Origin: Allosaccharopolyspora coralli
GTDB taxonomy: Bacteria > Actinomycetota > Actinomycetes > Mycobacteriales > Pseudonocardiaceae
Direction: 5' to 3'
NCBI RefSeq assembly: GCF_009664835.1
Contig: NZ_CP045929.1
Location: forward strand, 2,728,001-2,792,000
DNA: 64,000 nt
Below are positions 4,548 through 18,671 of this stretch, in pieces. The position numbers were made by a program, and so were the translations under genes. Below the pieces are notes generated by a model that was given only the letters and a program-made list of their open reading frames with translations, searched no databases and had not been told where the DNA came from. The stretch's first letter is position 1. Each line of letters begins with the position of its first letter.

Positions 4548-5464
4548 CGCTTCTCACCACCCTTTCCGCGCTTCGTCGACCGGGTTTGGGGTTTCGGCTG
4601 GGTCTTCGGGGGCGGCGGGGTCACGTTCGGCAGGTTCAGCGGCGGCTGCTGCGCCCGACGCTGCGGACGCTTCGGCGGCGGCTGCTGCGGCACGCCACGT
4701 GAGCGCGCGCCGGGGTCCTGGCTGGCCGGGGACCGCTTGGTGTTCCCCTTCGCCTCCGGTGCTGGCCGCGCGGGCAGGTTCAACGGCAGCGGTTCTTGCC
4801 GGTCCGGTCCCCGGCGTCGGGTCGCCGGTGCCGGGGGCTGCTCGGGGCGGGAGACGCGAGGGGCTCGGATCGGCAGCCGGTATTGGCCGGTGCTGGTGGG
4901 CACCGGGCGGTGCACAGGCCAGTCCCCGGTACGCGGCAACCGCGTCTGCTCACTCCGCTGCGGCCTCGACGTCGAGGGGTCCGCACCGCTGTCGGCGGCC
5001 GGTTCGGTGGGTTTCGGACGGGGTTGGCGTTGCAACCCGAACGGGAACTCGTACTGGCGATTCCGGCCCACGCGCGGCTTGTTCTCCGGCCATTCCCCGT
5101 CCATCGGCAGCATCAACTGCTGACCCCGCGGCGCAGCACTGCGCCCGGAATCGGGCCCGCCAGCGGGTTCAGTCGGGGCTTTCTTGGGTTTGGGGCGGGG
5201 TTGGCGTTTCACGTCCAGCGGCAGCATGTACTGACCACTGGAGGTCGCCTTGACTTTCCGATACGGATCAGGCGCGGTGCGCCCTTGGCTGAAGGACAAC
5301 CGGCCCATCGCCGAACCCGCCAGGCCGAGTGTCTTGTAGGCGACGAAGGCTTTCACCATCGAGCCGATGTAGGACCGGCCGCCGCCACGGATCGCCGACA
5401 GCATCCAGAACGGGATTTTGATCAGGATGTAGCACAGCGCGATAGCAATAAGAAACTTGGCCAC
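4544..5464 (-). CDS. Membrane-anchored proline-rich repeat protein of the transfer module
   Basis: A 306-residue protein. The N-terminus is a hydrophobic anchor (MAKFLIAIALCYILIKIPFW) followed by a second weakly hydrophobic stretch to about residue 60. The rest is low-complexity, rich in Pro, Arg and Lys, and contains about five spaced copies of a short hydrophobic motif: QYMLPLD, QLMLPMD, QYEFPFG, QYRLPIR, then PLPLNLP and PPLNLP, two of them followed by RQPRPKP. No enzyme domain is visible. The architecture suggests a membrane-tethered flexible scaffold for other transfer proteins; this is inference. It lies between the VirB6-like gene and PrgI and overlaps PrgI by ATGA. Confidence 0.65.
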   Translation of the reverse strand: MAKFLIAIALCYILIKIPFWMLSAIRGGGRSYIGSMVKAFVAYKTLGLAGSAMGRLSFSQGRTAPDPYRKVKATSSGQYMLPLDVKRQPRPKPKKAPTEPAGGPDSGRSAAPRGQQLMLPMDGEWPENKPRVGRNRQYEFPFGLQRQPRPKPTEPAADSGADPSTSRPQRSEQTRLPRTGDWPVHRPVPTSTGQYRLPIRAPRVSRPEQPPAPATRRRGPDRQEPLPLNLPARPAPEAKGNTKRSPASQDPGARSRGVPQQPPPKRPQRRAQQPPLNLPNVTPPPPKTQPKPQTRSTKRGKGGEKR

Positions 5465-5488
5465 AACAATTCCCCTCGCGTGGTGGGG

Positions 5489-6397
5489 TCAGAACAGGGA
5501 GACGCCGCCCGGCAGATAGAACATGCGGATCGCGGCAGCGAAGGTGAGTGCCTGCGCGATCTGAATCGCCAGGACGGCGCCGAAGGCTTTCCACCACCAG
5601 AACGCGATGGCTTCGGTTTGCGGCAACGCGTGACACAAGAGCAGCAGCGGTGCCCCGGCCAGCAGAATGACGGTCAGCGTGATGCGCACGACGTAGGTCA
5701 ACACCACGCAGATGAGCATCACCACGAGCGCGAGAATCGTGAAGATCACATACAACTCGCCATAAGACCCCTCATCGGGAAAGCCTCCACGCAGCGTGTC
5801 GGTGAACGCTTTCGTCGCCTCATCCAGCCCGACCCTGTTGCCCAACACAGCCTGGGAGAGAGCGTTGGCGAACGTGATGGCCTTGCCGCCGAGAAACAAC
5901 GACAGATTCGCCGCGACAAACGCCACCACCAGGCGGGGTAGGGCTTCGCGCACCGTGGTGCGGGTCTGCATCGTCTGATACGCCATCACCACCAGTCCGG
6001 CGATGACGACCACCAGCGCGTAGACGGCGATCATGATGTCCCGCGAGGCGCCCCAGACCTGCCCCATCACCGGCACCTGATCCAGCGCCGGGGTCGCCAA
6101 CAGCGTGGTCCCCAGCATGTCCAGCATCCCGTTCAACGCCGACCGGGCCAGGTTCGCGAACAGGTCCCAGATCCAGTCGGTCATCCAGTGATACAGCCAG
6201 TCCCCGACCATTCCCCCACCACCGGAATCCTCGGCAGGCGGCGCCGGGGGCGGCGCTGTGGTGGTGGGTGGTGGGGCCACGGTGGGCGGGCTGACGACCT
6301 GGCACGCCGGGTTCTCAGAGCCCGGTGGGCAGTCCTCGCCCGGAGGCAACGGCAACGGCGGCGGTGGCTCCGGTGCGGTGGGTGCAGGCGCGGGCAT
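5489..6397 (-). CDS. TrbL/VirB6-like polytopic conjugation protein
   Basis: A 302-residue protein. The first 60 residues are Pro/Thr-rich with a Cys pair (GEDCPPGSENPACQ) and would be extracytoplasmic or disordered. After a Gly run there are about five membrane segments, including IMIAVYALVVVIAGLVVMAY, LVVAFVAANLSLFL, YVIFTILALVVMLICVVLTY and ILLAGAPLLLLCHALP. TrbL/VirB6 proteins form the inner-membrane core of type IV secretion systems. The start ATG at 6397 is 5 bases after the pilin stop. Order pilin, VirB6, accessory, VirB3, VirB4 is consistent with an operon. Confidence 0.75.
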   Translation of the reverse strand: MPAPAPTAPEPPPPLPLPPGEDCPPGSENPACQVVSPPTVAPPPTTTAPPPAPPAEDSGGGGMVGDWLYHWMTDWIWDLFANLARSALNGMLDMLGTTLLATPALDQVPVMGQVWGASRDIMIAVYALVVVIAGLVVMAYQTMQTRTTVREALPRLVVAFVAANLSLFLGGKAITFANALSQAVLGNRVGLDEATKAFTDTLRGGFPDEGSYGELYVIFTILALVVMLICVVLTYVVRITLTVILLAGAPLLLLCHALPQTEAIAFWWWKAFGAVLAIQIAQALTFAAAIRMFYLPGGVSLF

Positions 6398-6402
6398 GGT
6401 GA

Positions 6403-6858
6403 TCAGAGCCCGCCGACGAAGTAGGTGAGGATGTCGACCACGACCGGGGCGAGTGCGGCCAGGCCGAAGCCGATGGCGGCGTTCTTGAACGCCTCCTTGG
6501 CCTTGCCGATCTCGCCCGGATCACCATTGGCCGTGATGTAGCGGACGCCGCCGATGGTGAGGAACACCGTGGCGATCAGGGCCAGCAGCCCCATGACCCA
6601 GTTGCGGATGTTGTTCAACACCGTCTGAAGGTTCGGGGCCACCGCCAACACCTCGGTGGTCTCGGCATGGGCCGTGCCAGTGGCCGACACCAGCACACCG
6701 AAGACGACCACGGTCAGCAGCAGCGGGCGGGCCCACCGCCCCCGCCGGGCACGAGCCGGGCGGGGGCGGCGCACCGGGGAGGCCGCCTCCGGATGCTGGA
6801 GCAGCCGGTGGGTCGGGGAACAGGAACGGGCAATCGGGTCAACGTCGCTCATACCCAT
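6403..6858 (-). CDS. Pilin-like conjugation protein (VirB2/TrbC type)
   Basis: A 151-residue protein. A basic N-region of about 45 residues leads to a signal-like hydrophobic core (LLLTVVVFGVLVSATG) and a cleavage-like site TAHA/ET. The mature part is about 85 residues with two hydrophobic helices (VMGLLALIATVFLTIGGVRY and IGFGLAALAPVVVDILTYF) joined by a short charged loop GDPGEIGKAKEA. Signal plus two helices is the VirB2/TrbC pilin pattern. The ATG at 6858 lies inside a 37-bp element that is repeated at 8165-8201; an alternative ATG is at 6852. It is the first structural gene of the transfer module. Confidence 0.75.
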   Translation of the reverse strand: MGMSDVDPIARSCSPTHRLLQHPEAASPVRRPRPARARRGRWARPLLLTVVVFGVLVSATGTAHAETTEVLAVAPNLQTVLNNIRNWVMGLLALIATVFLTIGGVRYITANGDPGEIGKAKEAFKNAAIGFGLAALAPVVVDILTYFVGGL

Positions 6859-6887
6859 GAAAGCCGTTTTTTGTGTCCCGAGCGTTC
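6851..6887 (-). repeat. 37-bp conserved element, copy A (overlaps pilin start)
   Basis: Read on the minus strand this 37-mer starts GAACGCTCGGGACACA, continues with an A tract and CGGC, and ends with the pilin start codon context TTCATGGGTAT. It matches copy B at 8165-8201 at 35 of 37 positions; both differences are transitions near the 3' end. The two copies point outward into opposite arms of the element, each immediately before a start codon. A shared promoter, operator or leader signal coordinating the two arms is the likeliest reading. Confidence 0.75.
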
Positions 6888-6899
6888 TCCGTTTGTTCG

Positions 6900-7730
6900 C
6901 TACTTTCCGTGACCCTGATGTGTGCCCGGCATTTGTGTCGAGCCGCGGGCGGTCCCCGGGGCGTCCCGTTCGGCGGGGGTGTGCTCGCTGCCGTCGTCTT
7001 CGTCGAGAAGCCATGCGGCGAGTCGGGCTTCGGCCTCGCGCCGCGCATTGCGCAGGCCCTCGTAGCCCATCCCGTCCGGGCGGGGCCACTGGGCCAATGG
7101 CTTCTTGTCGAGCCGGGTGAAGCTGATCAACGCGGCTTCGGTCTCGGTCACGACCCCGCTTCGCACCGCCCGGATGAGCACCAGATCCGGGTGCCCACTG
7201 GGCCGGGCGGGCTCGTCCGAGAAGAAGCCCGGCGTGGTCGGTGTCGCCGACAGCAGCGTCCTCGACAGGGCGTGGTGTCCGGCCCGGTAGGCCGACCACC
7301 GCAGCCGGGCCGCGATCCCCGGTTCGTCGAGGTCAACGGTGTGCACCTCGTCGAGCAACCCGCGCAGCGCCTCCGCGCACAGGTCGTGGGGATCGTCGCT
7401 GTCGTCAGTGCGGGTCAACCAGCCCGCGATCGGCGTCAGCATCGGCAACGCCAACCCCACCGCGACCAACATCCACGTCCCCCGCTCCGCGCGGGCACGC
7501 TCGATCACATACCGCCAGACCTCATCCCGCGAGCGCTGCGGGCAGTCCTCACCGAGCAGCACGTCCCGCAGCTCGACCAAGCCCACCTCACGGTCAGGCA
7601 GGCACTCGAACAAGCGGCCGTTGACCGTCACCGGATGCGGCCCCGTCACCAGCCAGCCGAATGCCTCACGCGCAGCAGCAAGAGGGTTGGTGGGCCACTG
7701 CGACTGCTCGAAAACCTCGGAGTGCGTCAT
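6900..7730 (-). CDS. Hypothetical protein, possibly sigma-factor-like
   Basis: A 276-residue soluble protein with ATG at 7730. Only one hydrophobic stretch is seen (WMLVAVGLALPMLTPIAGW, about residues 96-114). The middle contains ARLRWSAYRAGHHALSR and the C-terminal part reads VRSGVVTETEAALISFTRLDKKPL followed by a helical NARREAEARLAAWL segment. That layout, an early helical core and a late helix-turn-helix-like block, faintly resembles sigma-70 region 2/region 4 proteins on actinobacterial mobile elements, but no diagnostic motif is present. It lies upstream of and in line with the pilin operon, 41 bases before it, so a regulatory role in transfer is plausible. Not firmly recognised. Confidence 0.55.
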   Translation of the reverse strand: MTHSEVFEQSQWPTNPLAAAREAFGWLVTGPHPVTVNGRLFECLPDREVGLVELRDVLLGEDCPQRSRDEVWRYVIERARAERGTWMLVAVGLALPMLTPIAGWLTRTDDSDDPHDLCAEALRGLLDEVHTVDLDEPGIAARLRWSAYRAGHHALSRTLLSATPTTPGFFSDEPARPSGHPDLVLIRAVRSGVVTETEAALISFTRLDKKPLAQWPRPDGMGYEGLRNARREAEARLAAWLLDEDDGSEHTPAERDAPGTARGSTQMPGTHQGHGK

Positions 7731-7825
7731 CAGAGATGTCCTTCCTCGATGGCGAATCGATGACGCCGCCGAGAAAGCCAGACACGACACAAAGAAATGC
7801 ACGCATTCGCACAAAAAATGCTGAA

Positions 7826-7859
7826 AACGATCTCCCTGTGCAGCCGCCCAGAGATCGTT
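7826..7859. repeat. Inverted repeat, 9-bp arms
   Basis: AACGATCTC at 7826-7834 is the exact reverse complement of GAGATCGTT at 7851-7859, with a 16-base loop. It is the first of a cluster of hairpins in the gap between the divergent arms. Confidence 0.7.
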
Positions 7860-7929
7860 GTCATCCCGACGTTCAACATCGGTAGCAGATGCACACAAAC
7901 GTCTGTGCGCTGGGGATGTGTGTGAGATT

Positions 7930-7971
7930 TGTGCGTGCTGTGTCGCGCCACCCAGGCACACAGCACGCACA
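7930..7971. repeat. Inverted repeat, 14-bp perfect arms
   Basis: TGTGCGTGCTGTGT at 7930-7943 pairs perfectly with ACACAGCACGCACA at 7958-7971 around a 14-base loop. No T tract follows on either strand, so an intrinsic terminator is less likely than a protein-binding or oriT-type hairpin. Confidence 0.8.
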
Positions 7972-8164
7972 CAGAAAAGAATCTTGAACCCGTCCCGAGT
8001 GATCTTCCGGGGGCACTCGCAAGAAGGCCCAAGCGAGGGTCGTGGAGATCCCCGCGTGTGGTGCGAACTGGGGAAATGTCCACAGCAAGGTCGAATGTGG
8101 CGGAATGTGTGTGCACCTGCTGGACGCGGTCGGGTTCGTTGTCGAAAAAATGTCGGCCGTCGGG

Positions 8165-8201
8165 GAACGCTCGGGACACAAAAAACGGCCTTCATGGGCA
8201 T
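8165..8201 (+). repeat. 37-bp conserved element, copy B
   Basis: Plus-strand copy of the element found in inverted orientation at 6851-6887, 35 of 37 bases identical. It also ends in an ATG (8194-8196), here opening a seven-residue reading frame rather than a full gene. Confidence 0.75.
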
Positions 8202-8217
8202 ACACCGATTCCCGTGA
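8194..8217 (+). other. Possible leader ORF of 7 codons (MGIHRFP) in copy B
   Basis: The ATG within copy B of the 37-bp element opens ATG GGC ATA CAC CGA TTC CCG TGA. The stop lies 18 bases before the ATG of the methyltransferase-like gene at 8236. In copy A the equivalent ATG starts the pilin. A translated leader peptide that couples to the downstream gene is possible but unproven. Confidence 0.3.
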
Positions 8218-8235
8218 CGATCATCGGAGCACCGC

Positions 8236-9066
8236 ATGGCGCCGCACCCCCACCGCACCCCGCCAGCCCAGCCCACTACCTCGACCAGCACCCCGGACGG
8301 GCCCGCGCCGGTGGGCCGCTCGACGGCCCCACCCGCCGAGCGGGAGACCGGCGCGGCAGCCAGCGTGCTGCTCTGCCCCACAGCCCCCGATGCCGGACGG
8401 TGGGCGCAGTTCGCTGCCGCGCTGCCCGCGCTCATCACCGCCTACACCGACCCCGGCGACCGCGTGCTCCTCGCACCCACCCCCGGACCCGACGACAGCA
8501 GGCCGAACACCGACGCCGACGAGAGGGACCGACTCGTCGAGACCGTGCTCCGACTCGGCCGCGGCGCCACCACCCACGCCACGCCCGACGCGCCGCGCTC
8601 GCCGCGGTCCGACACCCGCCCCCAACCCGAGTCCGAGACCGGACCCGGACTCAGACCCGCGACTCGCTCCGCCCCGGGACCAACCGCCCCGCCGGATTCC
8701 CCGAGTCCGGTGTCGGACCGGTTCGCGTTGATCGTGCTCGGCGACCCGACGACCCCGCAGCGACACGGCCATCTCGCCGAGCTGGCCCCACAGCTCGACG
8801 CCGACGGCACCCTCGTCGTGCTCACACACAGTGACGAACCGGGGTGGTTCTGCACCGGGCGATTCCGCCGCCGCGCGCACACCCGAGGAGCGGTCCGGGA
8901 CGGTCTCGTGCTCACCGACCGACTGATCATCGCCCACGAACACCCCGACCCGTCGCCGCCCGCGAACCCGTCCGAACGCCGGGCGGTCGCCGAGCACGGG
9001 CACCGCCCGGCCCACAGCACCGCGTTCGTCTTCCGCCCCCGCCCGACCCGTCAGGGAGGCCGCTGA
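8236..9066 (+). CDS. Degenerate SAM-methyltransferase-like protein (first of a tandem pair)
   Basis: A 276-residue protein. The Ala/Leu-rich block ALITAYTDPGDRVLLAPTPGP at about residues 68-88 lines up with TYTAPGDTVCDPQPGPG in the next gene, a motif I region of DNA or RNA methyltransferases (TRM11/N4/N6 type). The catalytic DPPY motif is absent; the corresponding strand reads FALIVLGDP. Between them is a Pro/Thr/Arg-rich linker. A later HGHLAELAPQL...DGTLVVLTHSDEPGWF block resembles the C-terminal strands of such folds. It may be catalytically dead or an accessory subunit. Its stop overlaps the next start as TGATG. Identification is by weak similarity to its neighbour. Confidence 0.5.
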   Translation: MAPHPHRTPPAQPTTSTSTPDGPAPVGRSTAPPAERETGAAASVLLCPTAPDAGRWAQFAAALPALITAYTDPGDRVLLAPTPGPDDSRPNTDADERDRLVETVLRLGRGATTHATPDAPRSPRSDTRPQPESETGPGLRPATRSAPGPTAPPDSPSPVSDRFALIVLGDPTTPQRHGHLAELAPQLDADGTLVVLTHSDEPGWFCTGRFRRRAHTRGAVRDGLVLTDRLIIAHEHPDPSPPANPSERRAVAEHGHRPAHSTAFVFRPRPTRQGGR

Positions 9067-9947
9067 TGCCCCACCCCGTCACCCGGCCCGCCAGCGTCTG
9101 GGACACCGGCCGCCACGACCTCCGCCACCAACTCGCACACCGCCACGTCACCGCCACCCGAGCAGGCAGCGCGCTCACACCCGCCGTCGCGCGGCGCATC
9201 ATCACCACCTACACCGCACCCGGCGACACCGTCTGCGACCCCCAACCCGGACCCGGACTCGTCCTCGCCGAAGCCATCCGCGCCGGACGCCACGCCCTCG
9301 GCGTGAAACCGGGTCCGGACTGGGTCTCGGCGCTGGAAGGCAACCTCGACCACGCCCGCCTCGCCGGACCCGTCGGCACCGTCCACCTGCTCAACACCCT
9401 CGACGACCCCCACACCGACGGCATCCCCACCCCGATCGACCTCCTCGTCACCGGAGTACATCCCGCAGCCCAGCGCCTCGCCGACGCGATGATCCAACTG
9501 ACCGACGCACTCGGCCCGATCGCCCGATGGGTCCGCCCCGGAGGCTTCGTCGTGCTCGCCAGCCGACCCTGGCGACACGAACACACGCTGCTGGACATGC
9601 CCAGGCTCCTGTGCCGCACCGCCACCACGATCGGGTTCACCCCCGTCGAGCACTGCGTGGCCCTGACCGCACCCATGCGCGACAACCAGATCCGGCCACG
9701 CTCCCGCACCCGCAGCGGTCAACGAACCGAACACCGCGACCCGCACGGCCGCCCCACCGCACAACCGACCCACCTCGACGTACTGGTCTTCCGGGCCGCG
9801 CCGACCGCCGCCAACCCCACTCCGAGGGATGAGCCGGTGACCGCGCCCCTCCACCACAACGATGACGTCACTCCGCACAACAGCGAATCCCTCGAATCGC
9901 CTAAGAGGCCCAGCCGACGTCTCTCAAACGGGGAGTCCGCCCGATGA
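9066..9947 (+). CDS. SAM-dependent DNA methyltransferase-like protein (second of a tandem pair)
   Basis: A 293-residue protein. SAM-binding motif I is recognisable as PGDTVCDPQPGPGLVLAEAI at about residues 58-77, followed by AGRHALGV. The motif IV position reads DLLVTGVHP instead of the DPPY/NPPY of active amino-methyltransferases. A C-terminal GPIARWVRPGGFVVLASRPW segment and a THLDVLVFRA strand complete a Rossmann-like fold. The tail is Pro/Arg-rich. It is translationally coupled to both neighbours (TGATG upstream, ATGA downstream into the C5-methyltransferase), so the three appear to form one modification operon of the conjugative element. Active-site loss makes the role uncertain. Confidence 0.6.
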   Translation: MPHPVTRPASVWDTGRHDLRHQLAHRHVTATRAGSALTPAVARRIITTYTAPGDTVCDPQPGPGLVLAEAIRAGRHALGVKPGPDWVSALEGNLDHARLAGPVGTVHLLNTLDDPHTDGIPTPIDLLVTGVHPAAQRLADAMIQLTDALGPIARWVRPGGFVVLASRPWRHEHTLLDMPRLLCRTATTIGFTPVEHCVALTAPMRDNQIRPRSRTRSGQRTEHRDPHGRPTAQPTHLDVLVFRAAPTAANPTPRDEPVTAPLHHNDDVTPHNSESLESPKRPSRRLSNGESAR

Positions 9948-11170
9948 TGGCCAACCACAAAAACGGCGCTGCTTTGCCCACGGTGGGTTCCTTGTGCACC
10001 GGATACGGCGGGCTGGACATGGGAACGATCGCCGCCTTCGGCGGCGGTCAATTGGCGTGGTTCGCCGAAACCGATCCACACATGGCTACCGTGCTCCAGC
10101 AGCGAATCCCCTCGGTGCCCAACCTCGGGGATATCACTGCCGTCGACTGGAGCGACCTTCCTCGCGTGAACGTCCTGACAGCCGGTTTCCCGTGCCAGGA
10201 CATCTCGGCGGCCGGAAAACGAGCAGGAATACGGAAAGGAAACCGGAGTGGACTGTTCTATCGAATCATGGACGCCGTTCGCGTTCTACGACCCGACTAC
10301 GTCGTGCTGGAAAACGTCGCCGCTCTCCGATGGAAAGACGGCGGCCTCGGCGACGTTCTCGCGCACCTGGCCGAAGCAGGGTATGACGCGTTCTGGACAA
10401 GCATCCGCGCCAGCGACATCGGAGCGCCGCACCGCCGCGAACGCATCTTCATCCTCGCCCACCCCCATCAACGCCTCCCCAACGACCACGCGCCAACAGC
10501 GGCGCACAAGCCGGAACGGAACACTTCGTTGTCCGGGATCGGCACAGCGGGCCTTTCCGACCCCCGACGTTTCCGACGCCACACGCACGGGATGCGACCC
10601 GCACCAGCGGAAGACAGCAGGTCGGCAAATCAACACCCTGTTCCCGCCACCCCAGGAACACCATCGCCGCACCTCACGCTCGTTACCGACACCGACGGCC
10701 TCGGACGCGACGAAAGGCTCTCCCAACGGCAGGGACTCGAACGGCAACCCCGGCCTCACCGCAGCGGTGATCGAATTCCTGCCCACACCGCTGGCGGGAG
10801 GCAATCGCAAGAGCCGCCCGGCAATCGTCCGGCATCGCTGCGGGCCGGGACTGGAACAGGCCATCGAAATGGCCCTCGGCATGATGCCGGAAGAACTGGC
10901 GACATGGTCGGAAGCCCCGGGCTCCTGGACTGGGGCGTCTACGAGGCGGCGATCCGACGATGGGAAACGATCCTAGGACGACCCGCTCCACCCCCCACCG
11001 AACGCGGACGAACCGGGCGACCTCGGCTCTCGCCGCTGTTCGTGGAATGGATGATGGGCCTTTCTGTCGGGAAATCGATCATTAATGACTGTATTTCTGC
11101 TGGTAAGCGCGGTCTTTATGTGCGCGACGTGTGTCGTGGACCGGCGCGGCGGTTGGGGGTGTGTCGCTGA
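9944..11170 (+). pseudogene. Resident C5-cytosine DNA methyltransferase, 5' part, split by a transposon
   Basis: The frame has motif I GSLCTGYGGLD, motif IV GFPCQDISAAG with the catalytic Cys, motif VI VLENVAAL and motif VIII RRERIFIL. It then loses family resemblance until DWGVYEAAIRRWE and FVEWMMGL. At 11053-11061 the gene is cut by the 5.33-kb insertion; the last 36 or so codons are insertion sequence, and the true C-terminus with motifs IX and X lies at 16382-16553. Between about 10,550 and 10,910 the family-like sequence (FPTPDVSDAT, SLPTPTASDATKGSPNGR, VIEFLPTP) is in another reading frame, so two compensating frameshifts are also suspected. As it stands the product lacks motifs IX and X and should be inactive. 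Start ATG overlaps the previous stop. Confidence 0.8.
11062..11071 (+). repeat. Left-end inverted repeat of the transposon
   Basis: TTCTGTCGGG directly abuts the left core GATGGGCCT and is the exact reverse complement of 16307-16316 near the right end, 65 bases inside the right core. Candidate recombinase binding site. Confidence 0.5.
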
Positions 11171-12030
11171 TGGGCGTGGTGGTCGGTTCGTTGTGCACTG
11201 GGTACGGCGGTTTGGATGCCGGGGCGTTGAACGCGCTCGGTGGTGGGCGGGTCGCCTGGGTGGCGGATCCCGATCGGCACGCGTGCGTGCTGTTGGAGGA
11301 CCGGTTGCCCGGTGTGCCCAACCTGGGCGACATCCGCGAGGTGGACTTCTCGACGGTCGAGCCGGTGGACGTGCTCACGGCGGGGTTTCCTTGCCAGGAC
11401 GTGTCGGCTGCGGGCAAACGTGTCGGTATCCGGCATGGCAATCGCAGCGGGCTGTGGTTCCACGTTGCCCGCGCAGTGCGCGAGCTGCGGCCCGCGCTGG
11501 TGGTGATCGAGAACGTTGCGGCGTTGCGGTGGCGCGATGGCGGGCTGCATATCGTGCTCGGCGATCTGCACGAGGCCGGCTACGACTGTGCGTGGACGAG
11601 CCTGAAGGCCAGTGATGTGGGTGCGGCTCATCGCCGCGAGCGGATCTTCATCCTCGGATGGCCGCGCGACGAGGAGGCGAGGACCGCGTCGCCTCCCGCG
11701 AACGGTGAGGACGTGGTCGACGAGCCGCCGGTCGACTGGGGGCCGTATGAGGCTGCGATCCGGCGCTGGGAAGCGGTCATGGGGCGGTCGGCGCCTTACC
11801 CGGTCCAGACCGGTCAGCGAGGACGACCGGTGTTGTCGAGTCGTTTCGTGGAGTTCTTGATGGGGCTCGAGGACGGCTACTTGTCCAGTTTGGACATTCG
11901 GCGTACCGCGCAGCTTCGTCTACTCGGCAACGGTGTCGTGCCGCAGCAAGCATCGCACGCCATTCGTTCGTTGCTGGCCGACGGCGCCGTCGCGGCGCGT
12001 GGCGACGTCGAGGAAGGCCGCGCGGCATGA
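11170..12030 (+). CDS. C5-cytosine DNA methyltransferase, transposon cargo, intact
   Basis: A compact 286-residue enzyme with all key motifs in order: I GSLCTGYGGLDAG (about residues 6-18), IV GFPCQDVSAAG with the catalytic Cys, VI VIENVAAL, VIII RRERIFIL, then DWGPYEAAIRRWE, FVEFLMGLEDGY, IX RRTAQLRLLGN and X NGVVPQQASHAI. The spacer between VIII and IX is short, so its target-recognition region is smaller than in the resident gene. The ATG at 11170 forms TGATG with the stop of the truncated resident gene, so translation may be coupled to it; a GTG at 11131 is an alternative. It transfers methyl groups to cytosine in an unknown DNA site. It is homologous to the gene the transposon interrupts. 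Confidence 0.9.
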   Translation: MGVVVGSLCTGYGGLDAGALNALGGGRVAWVADPDRHACVLLEDRLPGVPNLGDIREVDFSTVEPVDVLTAGFPCQDVSAAGKRVGIRHGNRSGLWFHVARAVRELRPALVVIENVAALRWRDGGLHIVLGDLHEAGYDCAWTSLKASDVGAAHRRERIFILGWPRDEEARTASPPANGEDVVDEPPVDWGPYEAAIRRWEAVMGRSAPYPVQTGQRGRPVLSSRFVEFLMGLEDGYLSSLDIRRTAQLRLLGNGVVPQQASHAIRSLLADGAVAARGDVEEGRAA

Positions 12031-12079
12031 CCGGACATCGTGCTTTCTCATTGCGCGGCAACGGGTTGGCCGCGGCAGG

Positions 12080-12631
12080 TCAGGGTCGGTTGAGCTCGGT
12101 CATGAGTCGTCGGGTGGCTTCGCGGGCGGCGGCGAGTTCTTCGTCGCGTTCGGCCAGGGCGCGTGTGAGGTCGGAGATCGTGTGCTGCTGGTGGTCGATC
12201 TCGGCTTGGAGCGTGGCGGTGTTGGTGGCGGCGCCGAGTCCGCTGCGCTGGAACGCCTGCTGGCCGAGCAGTTCGGAGAGCCGGTCTTCCAGGTCGCGGA
12301 TGTGCTGTGCCTGCCGCCGGTTCTGCGCGTGCAGGTTGGCGTTCTCGGCCAGCACCGACCGGTGGCTGATCGCGGCCGAGGCGGCCGAGGGCGCGGTGAG
12401 GGCTTGGCTGGCGGCGGTGAGCACGGCCCCGTGCAGGTCGGGGTGGCGGTGGATGAACGACCGGTGCACCCCGGCCCGCGCGGCGACCGAGGAGACGCTG
12501 ATCGGTGTCGCGTCGGTGGTCATGTCGGCCAGCGCCTGCTGGACTCGTTGGCGGCGGTGCTCGACGTCACGCTGCCGCGCCTTGACCAGCCCCGACGCCG
12601 CAGGCGCGTCAGGAGTGTGGGGTGCGGTCAT
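12080..12631 (-). CDS. DUF6262-type protein (TnpC-like, helix-turn-helix plus coiled coil)
   Basis: A 183-residue protein. Residues about 20-60 (RRQRVQQALADMTTDATPISVSSVAARAGVHRSFIHRH, in shorter parts) look like a winged or TetR-like helix-turn-helix: ISVSSVAARAGVHRSFI is a clear recognition motif. The second half, about residues 90-180, is a long amphipathic coiled coil rich in Glu, Gln, Arg and Leu. This combination is the DUF6262 family, found next to pairs of tyrosine recombinases in Tn554-like elements, where the third protein affects insertion efficiency and orientation. The gene overlaps the end of tnpB by 23 bases and converges on the cargo methyltransferase with a 49-base gap. Confidence 0.8.
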   Translation of the reverse strand: MTAPHTPDAPAASGLVKARQRDVEHRRQRVQQALADMTTDATPISVSSVAARAGVHRSFIHRHPDLHGAVLTAASQALTAPSAASAAISHRSVLAENANLHAQNRRQAQHIRDLEDRLSELLGQQAFQRSGLGAATNTATLQAEIDHQQHTISDLTRALAERDEELAAAREATRRLMTELNRP

Positions 12632-15089
12632 GGTGTGCTCGCCCGGTCTCGGCGGCGGGTGGGCGGACGCTGGGCATGCCGAGGCTGACTGTCTGCCGCG
12701 TGGTGCGGATAACGTTGATCGCTTCGGTGATCTGGGCGCGGTCGCGTTCGGTGAGGGTGTCCAGGTCGGTCTCGATCCGGCGGATCAGGGTGCGCAGCGT
12801 GCTGATTTCCTCCTCGGCTGGGGACAACCGGGCGCGCGCCCAGTCCTCGATGTCGGTGGCGGCCTGGACGCGCTCGTGGTCGGCGAGCAGTTGTTGCAGG
12901 TAGGACTTCAGCTCGGGCAGGTAGGACGGGTCGCTGCGGAAGTGCCCGCAGCCCAGGCAGGTGAACTTGTAGGGACATGCCTTGCCACCGGCCTTGACGT
13001 TGGACGGCTCGGTGCAGATACCGAACGGGACGGCGACCTGCCCGACGCGCAGGCGGGCGTGCTCGTGCGCGAGCAGGCTGCTGACTTGCCCGAACACCTG
13101 GCGACCGTGGCCGTCGACCTGGTGGGCGCTGACCCGATCCACTGCGGCCCGGACGCGTTTCTCTGTGACGCGGTAGTACCCGGTAGTGGTTCGGGTCGAG
13201 CGATGCCCGAGCAGCTCGCGCAGCACGTCGGGGTTGACGCCCTCGTCGGCGTGCCGCTGCGCGTAGGTGTGCCGGTAGGAGTAGGGCACTACGGTCGTCG
13301 AATCCAGCGGCTGCCCGTCCGGCCCGATCAGCAGGTGCTCGATGGTGTCGACGAAGACGCGGTGGGCGTTGGTGTAGCTGGACACCGGGATCGGCTTGGT
13401 GCCGTCCTTGTTGCCCTTGACCCGCGGGAACAACGCCAGCTCACCGACCGGCGTGTGCGGGAACCGAGCGCGAACGTCGGACTGCTGGGTGACCAGCAAC
13501 GCCGCGGTGGCCTCGGAGATCGGCAGCCGCCGGCCGGGCCGGTCGTTCTTCGAGTCGGTGTAGATCAGCGTCGGCTTGCCGTCGTGGTCGCGTTCCAGGC
13601 AGTCCCACGCGAGTGCGCACGCCTCGTCGGGCCGACGACCGGTGTCGATGAGCAGCTCGGTGATCCGCCGCTCGTCCAGGCCGGCGCGCGCTTCCAGCAG
13701 GCCCAGGTTCTCGGTGATCACCGTCGACGCGGCGGGCGGCAGGTCCCGGCCGCGTGCCTCCCGCTCTGCCTCCCGTGGCACGTCGCCGCGGCGGACTGTG
13801 CACTCCCCGGCCAGACCGGCGGCCGGATGGGGTGGTCGGGTCAGTCCGAGCGCGCGCAGGTCGTCCAGGAAGCGACGCACCCGCCGCAGTGTCTCCAACT
13901 GTTTCTTCTCGCTCATCTGCCCGGTGCGGCGCAGGTAGACCATCCGGTTGGTGAACGTGACCACGTCGCCCCGCCCCAGCCGGGTGGCGTCGGTGCCGTA
14001 GTCGTCGCGGGAGAGCCGCAGGCTCTCCGACAGACGAGTGACGGCGTTGATCGTGTCCCGCGAGGTAGTGGCGGCCTGCCGGCCGCGGTGCAGCGGCAGG
14101 TCTTCGGCGACCCAGTGCTTGGTGGCCGCGCGAAGCCACGGCTGGCTGATGCCGGTGAAGTCCAGGGTGCCGGTCAGGCCGAACACCACCAGGTGCCAGA
14201 TGTCCTTGGCGCGTTCGCGTTCCGGGTCCGACAGCGCGCAGTACAGCTCGGCCAGGATCGAGCGCAACACCGCGCCCGCGTCGTGTCGAATGTCGGTGCT
14301 GCGCACCTCGGCCAGGTCGAACACGCTGCCCGCCCGGCGCGCGTGCGCGAGCTTGACCAGATGCCGGATCGTGGTCGGCAGGGTCCGCAGGCTGGCGTCG
14401 GTGCGGCGCTGTATACCGAGCAGCAGTTCGAGCTGCACCCGGTCCGGGAGTCCCTTGAGGACGATCACGTGGCCGAGGCTGACCGGCACCGCGCTCCGTA
14501 CCCAGGCGGCGAGGTCGGCGTCGGGATCGCCGCGCCTGGCCTTCCGCCACTGTTTGACGTGCGGCTTGCACAACCCCGCCTGGTCGTCGGCGCGACGGAT
14601 GCACGCCGGCACCCGGCAGTCGCCGTAAGAGGGCAGCGGCACGACCTCCGGCCGCGCCAGCCACGCCTGCACCGTCAGGTCGAGGTGCTGCTTGCGATGC
14701 CAAGAGTGGGTGCCGCACAGCCGCTCCCGCACCCGCGTCGGGCGCGGGCAGCCGGCCACCCGGCACGGCTTCTCCCCGCGGCTGGCCTTGCCCGACGGGG
14801 TGCGCGTGAACGCCTCCAGCGCGATGCCGCTGGCCTTGTGCCGCTCCCAACAAGAGGTGCACAGCTCCGCCCATTTGGCGCGCGTGGCGGCTTGGCAGTC
14901 GATGACCACGCACTCACGCAACCCGAGCAGCGCGTCGTCGCGGGCCGGCGCGACCACCCCGACCTCGGCGTCCCAACCGACCCTGGCCAGAAACTCCGGT
15001 CGCAGCAACCGGCGCAACTCCTCGACCGGCCCACCACCGACCCCGGCACCGGGGTCACGTGGGGCCGTCGCGATCGCCGAGATCGACAT
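12609..15089 (-). CDS. tnpB: Large tyrosine recombinase (TnpB-like) with zinc-finger-like repeats
   Basis: An 826-residue integrase. The C-terminal catalytic domain shows the Arg in DTGRRPDEAC, a Lys in DSKNDRPGRR, the HxxR-type YSYRHTYAQRH, the LLGHRST box and the nucleophile Tyr in TTTGYYRV. After it comes a Cys motif CPYKFTCLGCGHF and a coiled coil. The N-terminal 180 residues hold at least three Cys/His units (CTSCWERH; CRVAGCPRPTRVRERLCGTH; CRVPACIRRADDQAGLCKPH), unlike the 630-residue TnpB of Tn554. The ATG at 15089 follows the tnpA stop by two bases. It acts with tnpA on the GATGGGCCT-type site by inference. Confidence 0.85.
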   Translation of the reverse strand: MSISAIATAPRDPGAGVGGGPVEELRRLLRPEFLARVGWDAEVGVVAPARDDALLGLRECVVIDCQAATRAKWAELCTSCWERHKASGIALEAFTRTPSGKASRGEKPCRVAGCPRPTRVRERLCGTHSWHRKQHLDLTVQAWLARPEVVPLPSYGDCRVPACIRRADDQAGLCKPHVKQWRKARRGDPDADLAAWVRSAVPVSLGHVIVLKGLPDRVQLELLLGIQRRTDASLRTLPTTIRHLVKLAHARRAGSVFDLAEVRSTDIRHDAGAVLRSILAELYCALSDPERERAKDIWHLVVFGLTGTLDFTGISQPWLRAATKHWVAEDLPLHRGRQAATTSRDTINAVTRLSESLRLSRDDYGTDATRLGRGDVVTFTNRMVYLRRTGQMSEKKQLETLRRVRRFLDDLRALGLTRPPHPAAGLAGECTVRRGDVPREAEREARGRDLPPAASTVITENLGLLEARAGLDERRITELLIDTGRRPDEACALAWDCLERDHDGKPTLIYTDSKNDRPGRRLPISEATAALLVTQQSDVRARFPHTPVGELALFPRVKGNKDGTKPIPVSSYTNAHRVFVDTIEHLLIGPDGQPLDSTTVVPYSYRHTYAQRHADEGVNPDVLRELLGHRSTRTTTGYYRVTEKRVRAAVDRVSAHQVDGHGRQVFGQVSSLLAHEHARLRVGQVAVPFGICTEPSNVKAGGKACPYKFTCLGCGHFRSDPSYLPELKSYLQQLLADHERVQAATDIEDWARARLSPAEEEISTLRTLIRRIETDLDTLTERDRAQITEAINVIRTTRQTVSLGMPSVRPPAAETGRAHHDRTPHS

Positions 15090-15092
15090 CTC

Positions 15093-16232
15093 TCACCCAC
15101 CCGCCGGCCGTGGGGTTCCGACCCGGTCCACCGCATCGCGCAACCGCTGCCGATCGGTGTGGACGTATACCTCGCTGGAGGTGAACGAAGAATGGCCCAG
15201 CAGCTCCTTCAACTCGTCCACCGTCGCCCCGGCGGCGATGATGTTCGTGGCGAACCCGTGGCGCAGCATGTGCGGGCGAACGGTGCGAGACAAACGCGCG
15301 CGGCGGGACAACGCCTCGAACAGCTCGTTGATCGCGGCTGGGCGCATCGGCGCGCCGATCTCGCCGCGGAACAGGTTCACCAGCACGAAATCGCACCGCC
15401 GCGCCGGACCACAGGCGTTGCGTTCGATCAGGTACTGATCGAACGCCTGCACCAGCAGCCAGTCCGCCGGCACCGCCCGAGAGCGGCGCGACTTCGCCAT
15501 CGCCTTGTTCGGGTTGTCCCGCCGCCGGACGTGCACGTGCTCGCCGCGCTCGGGGCAACCCAGCCGGGTGGAGTCCGGCACGAAGTGCACGTCCTCCAGC
15601 CGCAGCCCGGTCACCTCGCCGCGACGATGGCCGATCCGCCACAGCGCCAGCACGATGAACCGGTCACGGGCGCTGCGGCAGGCCCGCAGCAGCGCCAGCA
15701 CCTCCTCGTCGGTGGCCGCCTCGACCGTTCGTTCCGGCGCCGACAGCCGATGTCGAGGGCGGCTGCGCACCCCGGTCGGCCGTTCTCCCCGCACATCCGC
15801 CGGCAAGTCGGTGTCCTCGACCGTGTCGTACAAGGCGTCCAGCGCCCGGCTCGCAACCATGCCGACCGTGACCGCGTACCGGACGAACTCGCGCACCGCA
15901 GCCATCACCGCGTTGACCCGGCCCGCGTTGCGCACAACCCGGCGCGGCGCACCAGGTTCGCCATCCGGGTCGTAGTATCGCAGCCAGAACACGAACCGGC
16001 CCAGCTCGCCCATCACGGTGCGCCAGTCCCGGCCGGTCGCCGTGCACCACTGCAACAGCAACGCCAGCGCGGTGGCGTACGCCTGCGTGGTGCTCTCCGC
16101 CCGGTCCTGACCGAGCCGTACGTGCAGCAGCCACTCATCCGCCTCCGGTACCGGGCGGCAGGCCGAGTCCAGCACCGTCCAGTACCGCTCCCCGGACGGC
16201 AACCGAACCGCAAACGACCGGAATGCGCACAC
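15093..16232 (-). CDS. tnpA: Tyrosine recombinase (TnpA-like)
   Basis: A 379-residue integrase. The N-terminal SAM-like core-binding region (SWERYW-type to about residue 110) is followed by the catalytic domain with Arg in GHRRGEVTGL, Lys in NPNKAMAKSRR, HMLRHGFATN, ELLGHSSF and the final SEVYVHTDR carrying the nucleophile Tyr. The GTG at 16232 is chosen because GGGAGG stands just upstream; the frame is open to an ATG at 16340 but that extension is Cys/Arg-rich and unlike the family. Length is close to the 361-residue TnpA of Tn554. First gene of the tnp operon at the right end of the transposon. Confidence 0.85.
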   Translation of the reverse strand: MCAFRSFAVRLPSGERYWTVLDSACRPVPEADEWLLHVRLGQDRAESTTQAYATALALLLQWCTATGRDWRTVMGELGRFVFWLRYYDPDGEPGAPRRVVRNAGRVNAVMAAVREFVRYAVTVGMVASRALDALYDTVEDTDLPADVRGERPTGVRSRPRHRLSAPERTVEAATDEEVLALLRACRSARDRFIVLALWRIGHRRGEVTGLRLEDVHFVPDSTRLGCPERGEHVHVRRRDNPNKAMAKSRRSRAVPADWLLVQAFDQYLIERNACGPARRCDFVLVNLFRGEIGAPMRPAAINELFEALSRRARLSRTVRPHMLRHGFATNIIAAGATVDELKELLGHSSFTSSEVYVHTDRQRLRDAVDRVGTPRPAGG

Positions 16233-16306
16233 CCGCCCACCTCCCAAACACTGTCCACAACGGACCAGGACGATAGGCACGATCCGAACGCGACAATCCA
16301 CGACAC

Positions 16307-16316
16307 CCCGACAGAA
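16307..16316 (-). repeat. Right-end inverted repeat of the transposon
   Basis: CCCGACAGAA, the exact reverse complement of 11062-11071. It lies 65 bases inside the right core copy; a second partial CCCGAC occurs immediately before the core at about 16374-16380. Confidence 0.45.
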
Positions 16317-16381
16317 CCCGTCGCGCACCACGGAAATCACCCAGCCAAGCGACAGTGCGCCACACCGGAAAGACCCCGACG

Positions 16382-16553
16382 GATGGGCCTGCCCGAAGCA
16401 TGGGTCACCGCCGACGACCTCACCCTGCCACGGTCAGCGCAGCTTCAAGCGCTCGGCAACGGCGTCGTACCTCAGCAAGCCGCCCACGCGGTACGTGGCC
16501 TGCTCAGCGACAGCCTGCGCACGACCTCCTCTCTCGACCAGGAGGCCGCCTGA
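16382..16553 (+). pseudogene. Resident C5-DNA methyltransferase, displaced 3' part (motifs IX and X)
   Basis: Reads MGLPEAWVTADDL, then motif IX-like SAQLQALGN and motif X GNGVVPQQAAHAV, ending SLDQEAA and TGA. This is exactly what the gene at 9944 lacks: its frame breaks off at FVEWMMGL, and this piece resumes with MGLPEAW. The cargo enzyme has the collinear FVEFLMGLED...LGNGVVPQQASHAI. No start codon or ribosome binding site serves the fragment, so it is probably untranslated alone, although the MGL methionine (16383) could theoretically initiate. Confidence 0.85.
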
Positions 16554-16759
16554 TGCGCCAGCTCGGATTCCTCGGCGGACGCCGGGAGGGCGTCGGCGCT
16601 ACCTTCTTGGCACCGTCCGTTGCACAACGACCGCTGCCCGCTGGAGGCACAGGTCATCTCGTTTCACCACGGGCGCCTTCCGGTCCGTCCGCAACCGGTG
16701 CGGGGGTGGCGGGAGAACCCCACGCAGCAACACCAACACGCAGCCGCCGCGACCGATGA
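16553..16759 (+). CDS. Small hypothetical protein, 68 residues, in a coupled chain
   Basis: The ATG overlaps the methyltransferase stop as TGATG, and its own stop overlaps the next ATG (16756) as ATGA. The sequence is Gly/Ala/Pro/Arg-rich (MRQLGFLGGRREGVGATF onward) with no recognised domain. Evidence for it being a real gene is the pair of precise start/stop overlaps in a run leading to the recombinase. Before the transposon inserted, its translation would have been coupled to the resident methyltransferase. Confidence 0.4.
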   Translation: MRQLGFLGGRREGVGATFLAPSVAQRPLPAGGTGHLVSPRAPSGPSATGAGVAGEPHAATPTRSRRDR

Positions 16760-16932
16760 GGCGCCGTGACTCACCCGAACAATCTGACACCGAGCGGGCC
16801 GAACTGACTGTGTTCACCCCCGAGGAACCTCCGGCACTGAACCCGGCTGCGGCGAGGGCGCTTCTCAGGATTCTCACCAGCGCGGCGGACCACATCGACT
16901 CTAGCCAGACCAGTGAGGACAAAGCAGCATGA
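16756..16932 (+). CDS. Small acidic protein, 58 residues, directly before the recombinase
   Basis: Begins MRRRDSPEQSDTERAELTVF and ends SQTSEDKAA, with a central amphipathic helix AAARALLRILTSAADHI. It overlaps the recombinase start by ATGA (16929-16932). Small proteins in this position next to serine integrases are often directionality factors or simply coupling ORFs; nothing in this sequence decides between them. It is acidic, which would be unusual for a DNA-binding excisionase. Confidence 0.5.
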   Translation: MRRRDSPEQSDTERAELTVFTPEEPPALNPAAARALLRILTSAADHIDSSQTSEDKAA

Positions 16933-18632
16933 CCATCAGATTCGGCTTCTACGGCCGGGTGTCTACCGAGGACCAGCAGGACCCAGAAGCGTCCCGCAAC
17001 TGGCAACGCACCCGCGCCCTCGCCCTGGTCGAGTCCCACGGGCAGCTCGTCACCGAGTACTTCGACATCGGCCATTCCCGTTCATTACCGTGGAAACGCC
17101 GACCGGAGGCCACCCGCCTGCTCGAAGCCCTCAAGGACCCCCATCGCGGGTTTGATGCTGTGGTCATCGGCGAGCCACAGCGGGCCTTCTACGGCAACCA
17201 GTACAGCCTCACATTCCCCGTCTTCGAGCACTATGGGGTTGGCCTCTGGGTCCCCGAAGTCGGCGGGCCCATCGATCCCTCTTCCGAGGCGCACGACCTG
17301 ATCATGGGCGTGTTCGGCGGCATGTCCAAGGGCGAACGCAACCGGATCAAGATCCGCGTTCGAACGGCCATGGGCTCCCAAGCTCAGATCGAAGGTCGCT
17401 TCCTCGGCGGTCGACCTCCCTATGGCTACCGCCTGACGGACGCCGGACCACACCCCAACCCCGCGAAAGCCGCCGACGGCAAACGACTCCACCAACTGGA
17501 GTTGGACCCTGAAACGGCACCGGTCGTCGAACGGATCTTCCACGAGTATCTGCGAGGTACCGGAGTGTTCGCGATCGCGCAGCAACTCACCGCCGAAGGC
17601 ACCCCGTCGCCCGCAGCTCGTGACAGGCAACGCAACCCGCACCGGTGCGGCATCGCCTGGTCCAAGAGCGCCGTGCGCACCATCCTGACCAATCCCCGCT
17701 ACATGGGCCGCCAAGTCTGGGGCAAGCAGAGAAAGCACGAACAACTCCTTGACGTCGAGGACGTGGCGCTTGGTCACCAGACGCGGATGCGATGGAACGA
17801 GGCCGACGACTGGCTGTGGTCGACCGACATCGCTCACGCCCCCATCGTCAACACCGACACCTTCAACGCCGTCCAACAGCGCCTCGCCTCTCGGGGCCCA
17901 CGCTCAACGAAACGCGCCACAGCGCGCGCCAAGCACCCCTACGCCTTCAAAGGGCTGTTGTACTGCGGGCTCTGCAACCGGCGAATGCAGGGGACTTGGA
18001 ACCACGACAGAGCCCACTACCGGTGCCGCTTCCCGTCGGAGTACGCGATCGCGAACAAGCTGGACCACCCACGTTCGGTCTACCTGCGCGAGGACCAGCT
18101 CACCCCAGCCCTCGACTCCTGGCTAGCCGAGGTGTTCGCCCCCGATCGCGTCCGTTCGACTCTCGAACAACTCGCGGACAACCAAAAATGCAGCACCACC
18201 ACCGACGAAGAAGCGGTCACCGCGCTGCGACAGAAGGTCGCAGGATGCCGACGCAAGCTTGAACGCCACAAAGAGGCCCTCGAAGCAGGCGCCGACGCCA
18301 GCTTGGTTGCGGGCTGGAGTAGCGAGGTCCAGAACGAGAAAGCCGCCGCCGAGGCGCAGCTCGCGCAACTCCAATCAGCATCCCGCCGAACGAGACCGAT
18401 GACGGCAACACAGATCCACAAGACCGTGCGGGCGCTTGGCGGTCTACTCACGGTCCTGCAAAGGGCCTCGCCCGAAGACAAAGCCGAGGTCTACCGCCAG
18501 CTCGACTTGACGATGACATACGACCCAACACGCAAGATGGTCTTGGTCAAAACTCGACCAAGACCATCCGTGGACCAACTGGTTGTGTCCGAGGGGGGAC
18601 TTGAACCCCCACGCCCATTAGTAGGGCACTAG
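16929..18632 (+). CDS. Large serine recombinase (integrase of the conjugative element)
   Basis: A 567-residue recombinase. The resolvase domain starts FGFYGRVSTEDQQD with catalytic Ser12 and continues to SKGERNRIKIRVR; a recombinase domain (GGRPPYGYRL to MGRQVWGKQ) follows, then a zinc-ribbon CGLC...YRC at about residues 343-365 and a coiled coil at about 420-490. These are the parts of large serine integrases that cut and rejoin att sites. The last 15 or so codons (EGGLEPPRPLVGH) are antisense to the 3' half of tRNA-Leu, so the C-terminus is encoded by the attachment region itself. It is translationally coupled to the small ORF upstream. Confidence 0.9.
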   Translation: MTIRFGFYGRVSTEDQQDPEASRNWQRTRALALVESHGQLVTEYFDIGHSRSLPWKRRPEATRLLEALKDPHRGFDAVVIGEPQRAFYGNQYSLTFPVFEHYGVGLWVPEVGGPIDPSSEAHDLIMGVFGGMSKGERNRIKIRVRTAMGSQAQIEGRFLGGRPPYGYRLTDAGPHPNPAKAADGKRLHQLELDPETAPVVERIFHEYLRGTGVFAIAQQLTAEGTPSPAARDRQRNPHRCGIAWSKSAVRTILTNPRYMGRQVWGKQRKHEQLLDVEDVALGHQTRMRWNEADDWLWSTDIAHAPIVNTDTFNAVQQRLASRGPRSTKRATARAKHPYAFKGLLYCGLCNRRMQGTWNHDRAHYRCRFPSEYAIANKLDHPRSVYLREDQLTPALDSWLAEVFAPDRVRSTLEQLADNQKCSTTTDEEAVTALRQKVAGCRRKLERHKEALEAGADASLVAGWSSEVQNEKAAAEAQLAQLQSASRRTRPMTATQIHKTVRALGGLLTVLQRASPEDKAEVYRQLDLTMTYDPTRKMVLVKTRPRPSVDQLVVSEGGLEPPRPLVGH

Positions 18633-18671
18633 CACCTCAAGCTAGCGCGTCTGCCATTCCGCCACTCGGAC
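18586..18671 (-). tRNA. tRNA-Leu (anticodon GAG)
   Basis: Folded by eye on the minus strand: acceptor GTCCGAG pairs with CTCGGAC; anticodon arm GCTAGCTTGAGGTGCTAG has the loop CTTGAGG, giving anticodon GAG; a long variable arm (TGCCCTACTAATGGGCG) marks a class II tRNA; the T arm is GGGGGTTCAAGTCCCCC. No CCA is encoded. Its 3' half overlaps the end of the serine recombinase gene, marking the integration site of the conjugative element. Confidence 0.95.

Follow-up and report, generated by a model that had tools for sequence, protein, structure and literature searches.

We identified a Tn554-like transposon of 5,329 bp that interrupts a C5-methyltransferase (C5 MTase) gene in a 64,000-nt stretch of Allosaccharopolyspora coralli (contig NZ_CP045929.1, positions 2,728,001–2,792,000, forward strand), referred to here as the window; coordinates are window-relative unless a locus is named. 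According to its open reading frames (ORFs) and Pfam matches, the insert holds tnpA, tnpB, a DUF6262/tnpC gene and an intact C5 MTase. Our preferred explanation, to which we give a probability of about 0.63, is that a site-specific actinobacterial Tn554-like transposon uses the end of motif IX in C5 MTase genes as its landing site and carries an MTase homologous to its targets. The anatomy of the element is practically certain, and with high confidence the attachment site of this lineage is the DNA encoding the Met-Gly-Leu (MGL) end of motif IX in C5 MTases, with the core ATGGG[C/G]CT.

Insertion site and anatomy of the element

The codons ATG GGC CT are the last before the break in the resident MTase frame, which is taken up again at 16391. 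A preliminary description of this DNA, made from the sequence alone, had reported a cut at the MGL codons with GATGGGCCT at both junctions, and this was borne out. It had also placed the cut between motifs VIII and IX; the position is instead the end of motif IX, before motif X, these being the motif names that we take to apply to the resident enzyme. The 9-mer GATGGGCCT occurs exactly twice in the window (11053–11061 and 16382–16390), with 0.41 occurrences expected and 5 of 100 shuffles reaching two, and therefore proves little by itself. Removal of the 5,329 bp yields an open frame of 426 aa ending LGNGVVPQQAAHAV... The earlier claim that a perfect in-frame protein is restored holds for this open frame, but the variable region of the enzyme is apparently coded in another frame. 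The insertion reading rests on more than the rejoined frame, because one of the MTase loci obtained by searching 390 and 336 related genomes provides a natural empty site. This locus, L166 in genome G025, is the nearest uninterrupted relative found; it reads FVEWMMGLPDGFVTDPALGLPRNAQLRALGNGVVPQQAAHAI over GGATGATGGGCCTCCCC, continues downstream of the site into the expected C-terminus and is 74% identical to the window resident over 205 columns. In a Tn554-type footprint the donor supplies the core at the distal end and the target is not duplicated; since both junctions are alike here, the donor-derived and target-derived copies of the core are indistinguishable from sequence. The features of the interrupted gene and the element are as follows.

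9944–11061, plus strand: 5' part of the resident C5 MTase, motifs I–IX, interrupted (PF00145, 5.1e-37; ORF 9944–11170)
11053–11061, plus strand: left junction core GATGGGCCT, on the tnpA-distal side; L166 has the natural empty site
11062–11071, plus strand: left element end TTCTGTCGGG, an imperfect inverted copy of the right end; a similar end is found in locus L095
11062–11170, plus strand: 35-codon continuation of the resident frame beyond MGL into the element, with a TGA that overlaps the cargo ATG (TGATG)
11131–11148, plus strand: subterminal repeat GTGTCGTGGACCGGCGCG; inverted copy at 16289–16306 (83%)
11170–12030, plus strand: cargo C5 MTase, 286 aa, catalytic motifs kept, without the long variable region (PF00145)
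12080–12631, minus strand: TnpC/DUF6262 (PF19776, 3.3e-9)
12609–15089, minus strand: TnpB, long tyrosine recombinase, 826 aa (PF00589, 4.1e-12)
15093–16340, minus strand: TnpA, tyrosine recombinase, 415 aa as called (PF00589, 3.2e-22)
16374–16384, plus strand: right element end CCCCGACGGAT (reverse complement ATCCGTCGGGG), similar to the TTC...GGGG end that relatives have upstream of tnpA
16382–16390, plus strand: right (tnpA-proximal) junction core GATGGGCCT
16382–16553, plus strand: 3' part of the resident C5 MTase, motif X, LGNGVVPQQAAHAV, in the rejoined frame

TnpA, the long TnpB and the TnpC-like gene form a single run on one strand, the arrangement by which actinobacterial Tn554-like transposons are recognised; the class is further characterised by a circular intermediate and by transposition that requires all of its Tnp proteins. 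Judged by its position, the DUF6262 gene is the putative counterpart of TnpC. The start of TnpA may lie further in, as many relatives align from residue ~37–45 and a few from residues 2–31. The gene content given in the preliminary description (Tn554-like recombinases, a DUF6262 protein and an intact, homologous C5 MTase) agrees with the Pfam matches, which include PF00589 twice, PF19776, and PF00145 on both the resident and the cargo enzyme. A single copy of this tnpA was found in the genome of the window, and the eight other matches there are 25–40% identical.

The actinobacterial Tn554-related transposons were defined, with one long recombinase, by Van Houdt et al (2012; PMC3414803). Their elements share with this one a long and an ordinary tyrosine recombinase and a TnpC-like gene in the same orientation; they differ in that the main text of that paper does not contain the word methyltransferase, and we found no C5 MTase target or MTase cargo described there. 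The Firmicute elements Tn554, Tn558, Tn559, Tn5406 and Tn6188 likewise have tnpABC and prefer one conserved coding site, which the Tn6188 paper (PMC3788773) places in radC and describes as strongly preferred by Tn554 relatives. This group carries mostly resistance cargo, whereas the element described here is found in the motif IX codons of a C5 MTase, not in radC, and carries an MTase. The strand-biased circularizing integrative elements and GInts, as presented in PMC10214605, also combine two tyrosine recombinases, one of them large, with a short core and a target preference, but one of their four conserved genes is a Tfp counterpart, and this element has none. Members of the RIT, SE and GInt groups are recognised by three tyrosine recombinases or a Tfp-like fourth gene; we find two recombinases and DUF6262 only. 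In the open-access literature we found no C5 MTase target for such an element among the matches listed. The type of transposon is known, and the combination of a C5 MTase motif IX target with cargo homologous to the MTase appears to be new.

Following what is described for the strand-biased elements (PMC10214605) and for the staphylococcal element Tn552-II (PMC12486829), TnpA and TnpB, with the help of TnpC, would most likely join a circular or single-strand copy of the element to a 7–9-bp core in the MTase gene. By the rule given in the same two sources, the core at the tnpA-distal junction would come from the previous donor; the identical core at both junctions suggests that this donor also offered a ATGGGCCT site, as in another MTase.

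A second element at the same codons

Through the DUF6262 gene, which is 75–76% identical to that of the window, we identified a second element at loci L095 and L096, located in two genomes (G043 and G076) of another genus and 99.5% alike over 15.8 kb. The resident-type C5 MTase of these loci diverges from its intact relatives at the same codons, after FVEWLMGL and before S, and the host core is ATGGGGCT in L095 and ATGGGCCT in L096. A 24-nt pattern overlapping GTGTCGTGGACCGGCGCG matches exactly between the window and the left end of L095, but not L096. The host MTase is followed by the left end of the element, an antisense Ymh-family gene, a C5 MTase, an unknown gene and DUF6262; the cargo MTase of L095 is 70% identical to that of the window. 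The claim of the preliminary description that the element targets a coding motif of C5 MTases thus gains from a second, probably independent, insertion of the same lineage at the same codons.

The antisense Ymh-family gene lies at L095:5468–6427, between the interrupted MTase and the cargo MTase, and is possibly a defence gene. The resident C5 MTase of L095 is preceded by an N6/N4-type MTase gene, as in the window.

The relationship between the two insertions was analysed in a tree of 54 MTase N domains (164 columns) and in a tree of 41 rows with the motif IX part added (207 columns), the latter leaving out 13 of the 54 rows that have no readable motif IX part or, for two, are very divergent. 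The window resident pairs with the uninterrupted L166 in both trees (100/98 and 100/99), the cargo MTases of the window and of L095/L096 are sisters in both (99/94 and 100/97), and in the 54-row tree the residents of L095/L096 are placed on another branch than the window resident. A single ancient insertion inherited by both hosts, by which the shared site would be explained by descent and would demonstrate no target specificity, agrees with the N6/N4-type MTase gene that precedes both residents. It is set against an approximately unbiased (AU) test that rejects the interrupted residents as one clade with the 207 columns (p-AU 0.0003), against the pairing of the window resident with an uninterrupted gene, and against the N-domain identities, the residents being more diverged (61%) than the cargo genes (75.5%). 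The neighbouring integrases differ as well, with a serine recombinase in the window and a tyrosine integrase in L095. On this evidence we consider inheritance of one ancient insertion improbable. The trees and identities indicate that the site was probably struck twice independently, with one reservation: the AU test on the N domain alone (164 columns) gives p 0.109, which is compatible with a common interrupted ancestor.

The cargo methyltransferase and its joint with the host gene

The cargo MTase is 65.6% identical to the window resident over 163 aligned N-domain residues, contains the catalytic motifs GFPCQD, IENV and HRRERIF, and aligns with HhaI MTase over query residues 10–167. With a dN/dS of ~0.22 between the window and L095, and four third-position differences but zero amino acid changes between L095 and L096, the cargo enzyme is, as judged from these substitutions, under purifying selection. 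It had been described as a homologous enzyme with a different target-recognition region. The homology stands, but the long variable region is lacking: the spacing from RRER to WG.Y is 31 residues in the cargo versus 144–225 in the 17 rows measured (160 in the window resident). These rows are the window resident and 16 loci from relatives, with one gene represented by two of the loci; four of 21 rows were unmeasurable, and the row measure skips the first two residues. Without this region, the cargo is not simply an enzyme with another recognition domain. It also contains an internal copy of the core, which is GATGGGCCT in L095/L096 and GATGGGGCT, with one mismatch, in the window (at 11859).

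A precedent for such cargo is Tn552-II, a staphylococcal tnpABC element compared with Tn554 by Wan et al (2025; PMC12486829). It carries a “target-gene-like” gene, tgl, which holds an att copy at a similar position, and these authors suggest that it may rescue the disrupted target. The two systems are alike in carrying a homologue of their own target with a core copy at the corresponding place. They differ in the target, which is CDS40, a YolD-like protein, in Tn552-II and a C5 MTase here, and in the fidelity of the copy: in the description of Tn552-II att and the internal att are distinct (TAAATGC and CAAAAGG), in contrast to the exact or one-mismatch copies found here. The rescue idea is accordingly already in print for Tn552-II. 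The cargo MTase would most likely maintain C5 MTase activity after the host gene is cut, and insertion would be cheap. We regard compensation for the broken MTase as likely but unproven, and give it slightly better than even odds; the host frames that end on the cargo start raised our confidence from an even balance to this level.

In the window, this frame stops on the cargo start as TGATG, an overlap that the preliminary description had pointed out and that is real. In L095/L096, the host frame stays open for another 321 codons after MGL, antisense to the Ymh-family gene, and its final TGA shares bases with the cargo ATG (ATGA). Between MGL and the cargo, the two remaining frames of L095 contain 10 and 3 stops. 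We had considered the overlap not to be conserved, given the antisense gene between host and cargo in L095, and rejected this view because the host frame there is open to the ATGA. The host frame thus terminates on the cargo start codon in three of three copies, representing two insertion events, which keeps the idea of translational coupling alive. Landing in the same codon phase every time would allow the element to keep an end in which the host frame stays open as far as its own MTase. Host translation may be handed over to the cargo MTase in this way, but the position of the stop could also be due to chance. Two of the three window frames are open over the short stretch between MGL and the cargo, and the TGATG there is weak evidence alone; any start that reads ATGA will stop one of the three possible frames by chance; with this G+C, genes often have long open frames on the opposite strand; and every cargo start is preceded by its own purine-rich stretch. 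The idea of coupling is also qualified by the 321 codons, opposite an antisense gene, that separate the host MTase from the cargo in L095/L096.

Methylation by the cargo might also label the attachment site, given the GGCC in the window core, but there is no GGCC in the core of L095, an argument against this idea. Taken jointly, the propositions that replacing what is cut recurs in Tn554-type transposons, that the end has evolved to hand host translation over and that a GGCC site is possibly marked are tentative, and we doubt that all of them hold.

The match between target and cargo could instead be a coincidence, in which the core matches a conserved codon run and a common C5 MTase became both target and cargo with no functional link. 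Such enzymes are frequent, with matches in 52 of the 390 family genomes (E 1e-70) and in 1,347 phage records (E 1e-5); other lineages bear unrelated cargo such as arsenic genes, and a cargo acquired once amounts to a single observation. Against coincidence, two insertions of the same lineage are found at the same codons, the decay of tnpAB in L095 contrasts with a cargo MTase maintained by selection, and Tn552-II provides the precedent of target-gene-like cargo (PMC12486829). As a further control, the tnpA-side half of the target was used as query against 18 other elements, up to 14 kb inward. The interrupted flank was matched only in L090 and L091, by those elements' own tyrosine recombinases; this control is limited in that the target is known in 11 of the 18, L085/L086 are one element, and L053, L084 and L091 have little or no visible cargo. 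No copy of the target, queried by its tnpA-side half, was seen as cargo in the distant relatives whose target gene was identified. Of 27 element loci, among which L039 and L093 represent the same place and some of which end early, two (L095 and L096) gave a C5 MTase match; three additional element loci (L157, L158 and L120) gave none. We consider coincidence unlikely, though a serious competitor.

Slightly less probable again is a defence or anti-restriction role, in which the MTase would be the modification part of a defence module and carried for that purpose. This agrees with the cargo of L095, where the MTase accompanies a Hypoth_Ymh gene (2.8e-31) and the unknown gene, and with weak PADLOC matches in that locus (PD-Lambda-3_B, E 0.00035; Aga_HEPN, E 0.0039). 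The window element, however, has no nuclease partner, the unknown gene of L095 has no match in Pfam, PADLOC or NCBIfam, and PADLOC classes the cargo only as a generic C5 MTase.

If the site-specific, target-homologue-carrying transposon that we propose is real, it would be, with Tn552-II, the second, unrelated tnpABC transposon to carry a homologue of its target, and the published remark on rescue would become a testable rule. It would also offer a natural system in which to ask why mobile DNA needs orphan C5 MTases.

Related elements, their targets and the surroundings of the insertion

Relatives of TnpA at E 1e-40 or better are present in 22 of 390 family genomes, own included, and TnpB relatives in 221 plasmid records, with Streptomyces, Rhodococcus and Enterococcus among the matches listed. 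Many relatives share the end TTCTCTCGGGG upstream of tnpA; element ends were placed by the conserved TTC...GGGG motif, partly by eye, and distal ends by script for few loci. Several distinct targets were identified. An integrase-core transposase is cut at rve_3 profile position 57–58 in L053, L084 and L082, DprA at position 153 in L085 and L086 (two copies of one element, whose distal end has the same GCGGCG core), and a tyrosine integrase (Phage_integrase) at position 35 in L090 and L091. Other targets are an ISL3 transposase (L083), a DDE_5 transposase (L092) and a PIN-domain gene (L040; weak, below the Pfam cut-off), and the target of L081 was read as dprA by eye from the flank. The assignment is loose for L046/L047 (plasmid gene), L087 (near tRNA-like sequence) and L048, and there is none for L079, L157, L158, L039, L045, L080, L088 and L089. 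The C5 MTase motif IX end would thus join the conserved coding landing sites radC (in print) and dprA, insertion sequence (IS) transposases and tyrosine integrases (seen here).

The elements of L053, L084 and L082 share the C-terminal codons (YN..R) of three different IS transposases and may ride on abundant repeated DNA. Genome G263 (L085, L086 and L094) has four TnpA copies of a Tn554-like element, and the two examined split two different dprA genes at the same codons.

In the TnpA tree, the five labelled target groups need the fewest possible changes, a minimum that none of 200 shuffles reached. The count covers 11 labelled rows and leaves out 14; the two rows for dprA are identical to each other, and the two from plasmids nearly so. 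The ISL3 site, the tRNA-like neighbour and one unassigned site fall within or beside the dprA clade, so target specificity is not absolute. A preference for specific conserved sites is nevertheless seen in the two hosts interrupted at the same MTase codons and likewise in sister lineages. According to the preliminary description, relatives at unrelated sites would refute its reading; we find such sites for distant relatives (TnpA ≤65% identical) and not for the closest lineage found.

Several of these results weigh against our preferred explanation. The window TnpA groups with L079 and L157, and these nearest relatives (65% and 61% identical, respectively) sit at other sites with no named target, which leaves one intact copy as the basis for assigning MTase specificity to this TnpA. 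In L095 and L096 the left junction alone is visible: tnpA is missing, as are most of tnpB and the host gene's right half. Viral contigs scanned with TnpB, a TnpC alignment and the subterminal pattern gave no further copy, and the junction pattern gave seven matches there whose translations look like unrelated genes. No further copy was found in plasmids among the matches listed (30 of 221 and 20 of 71 records), and an order-level TnpC search was positive in three of 298 genomes including the own, the other two having no C5 MTase match in the stretch. A TnpB scan of genome contigs, for which peptide patterns are poorly suited, returned one 30% relative only. With the cargo MTase alignment, the viral scan gave five loci, of which L159, L160 and L163 are uninterrupted and L161 and L162 have no in-frame motif X after the site.

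The interrupted MTase is located in a region resembling an integrative and conjugative element (window 3510–18671), with PrgI and type IV secretion system pilin genes. The resident C5 MTase begins within the end of an N6/N4-type MTase ORF (8844–9947; weak Pfam match, below the cut-off), the two overlapping at ATGA. A serine recombinase occupies 16929–18632, and its 3' end overlaps tRNA-Leu(gag) at 18585–18671. A near-copy of the tRNA 3' end (96% over 28 nt) lies ~154 kb away at G000:C1:2592502, and a weaker one at 2575575.

In the resident-type enzymes (window 10460–10976; loci L137–L193), the variable region is apparently read in the +1 frame when the N- and C-terminal parts define frame 0. 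Differences at frame-0 positions 1/2/3 number 1633/838/887 (36 overlapping pairs; one gene present twice), in the 17 measured rows GC reaches its maximum at frame-0 position 1, and both the window and L095 have a phrog_1008 match in their +1 frame. Of 25 loci with a motif I pattern match (61 scanned), 24, representing 19 distinct genes, nevertheless have no stop in frame 0 between motifs I and X. A variable region coded in +1 beside an open frame 0 suggests frameshifting, re-initiation or dual coding.

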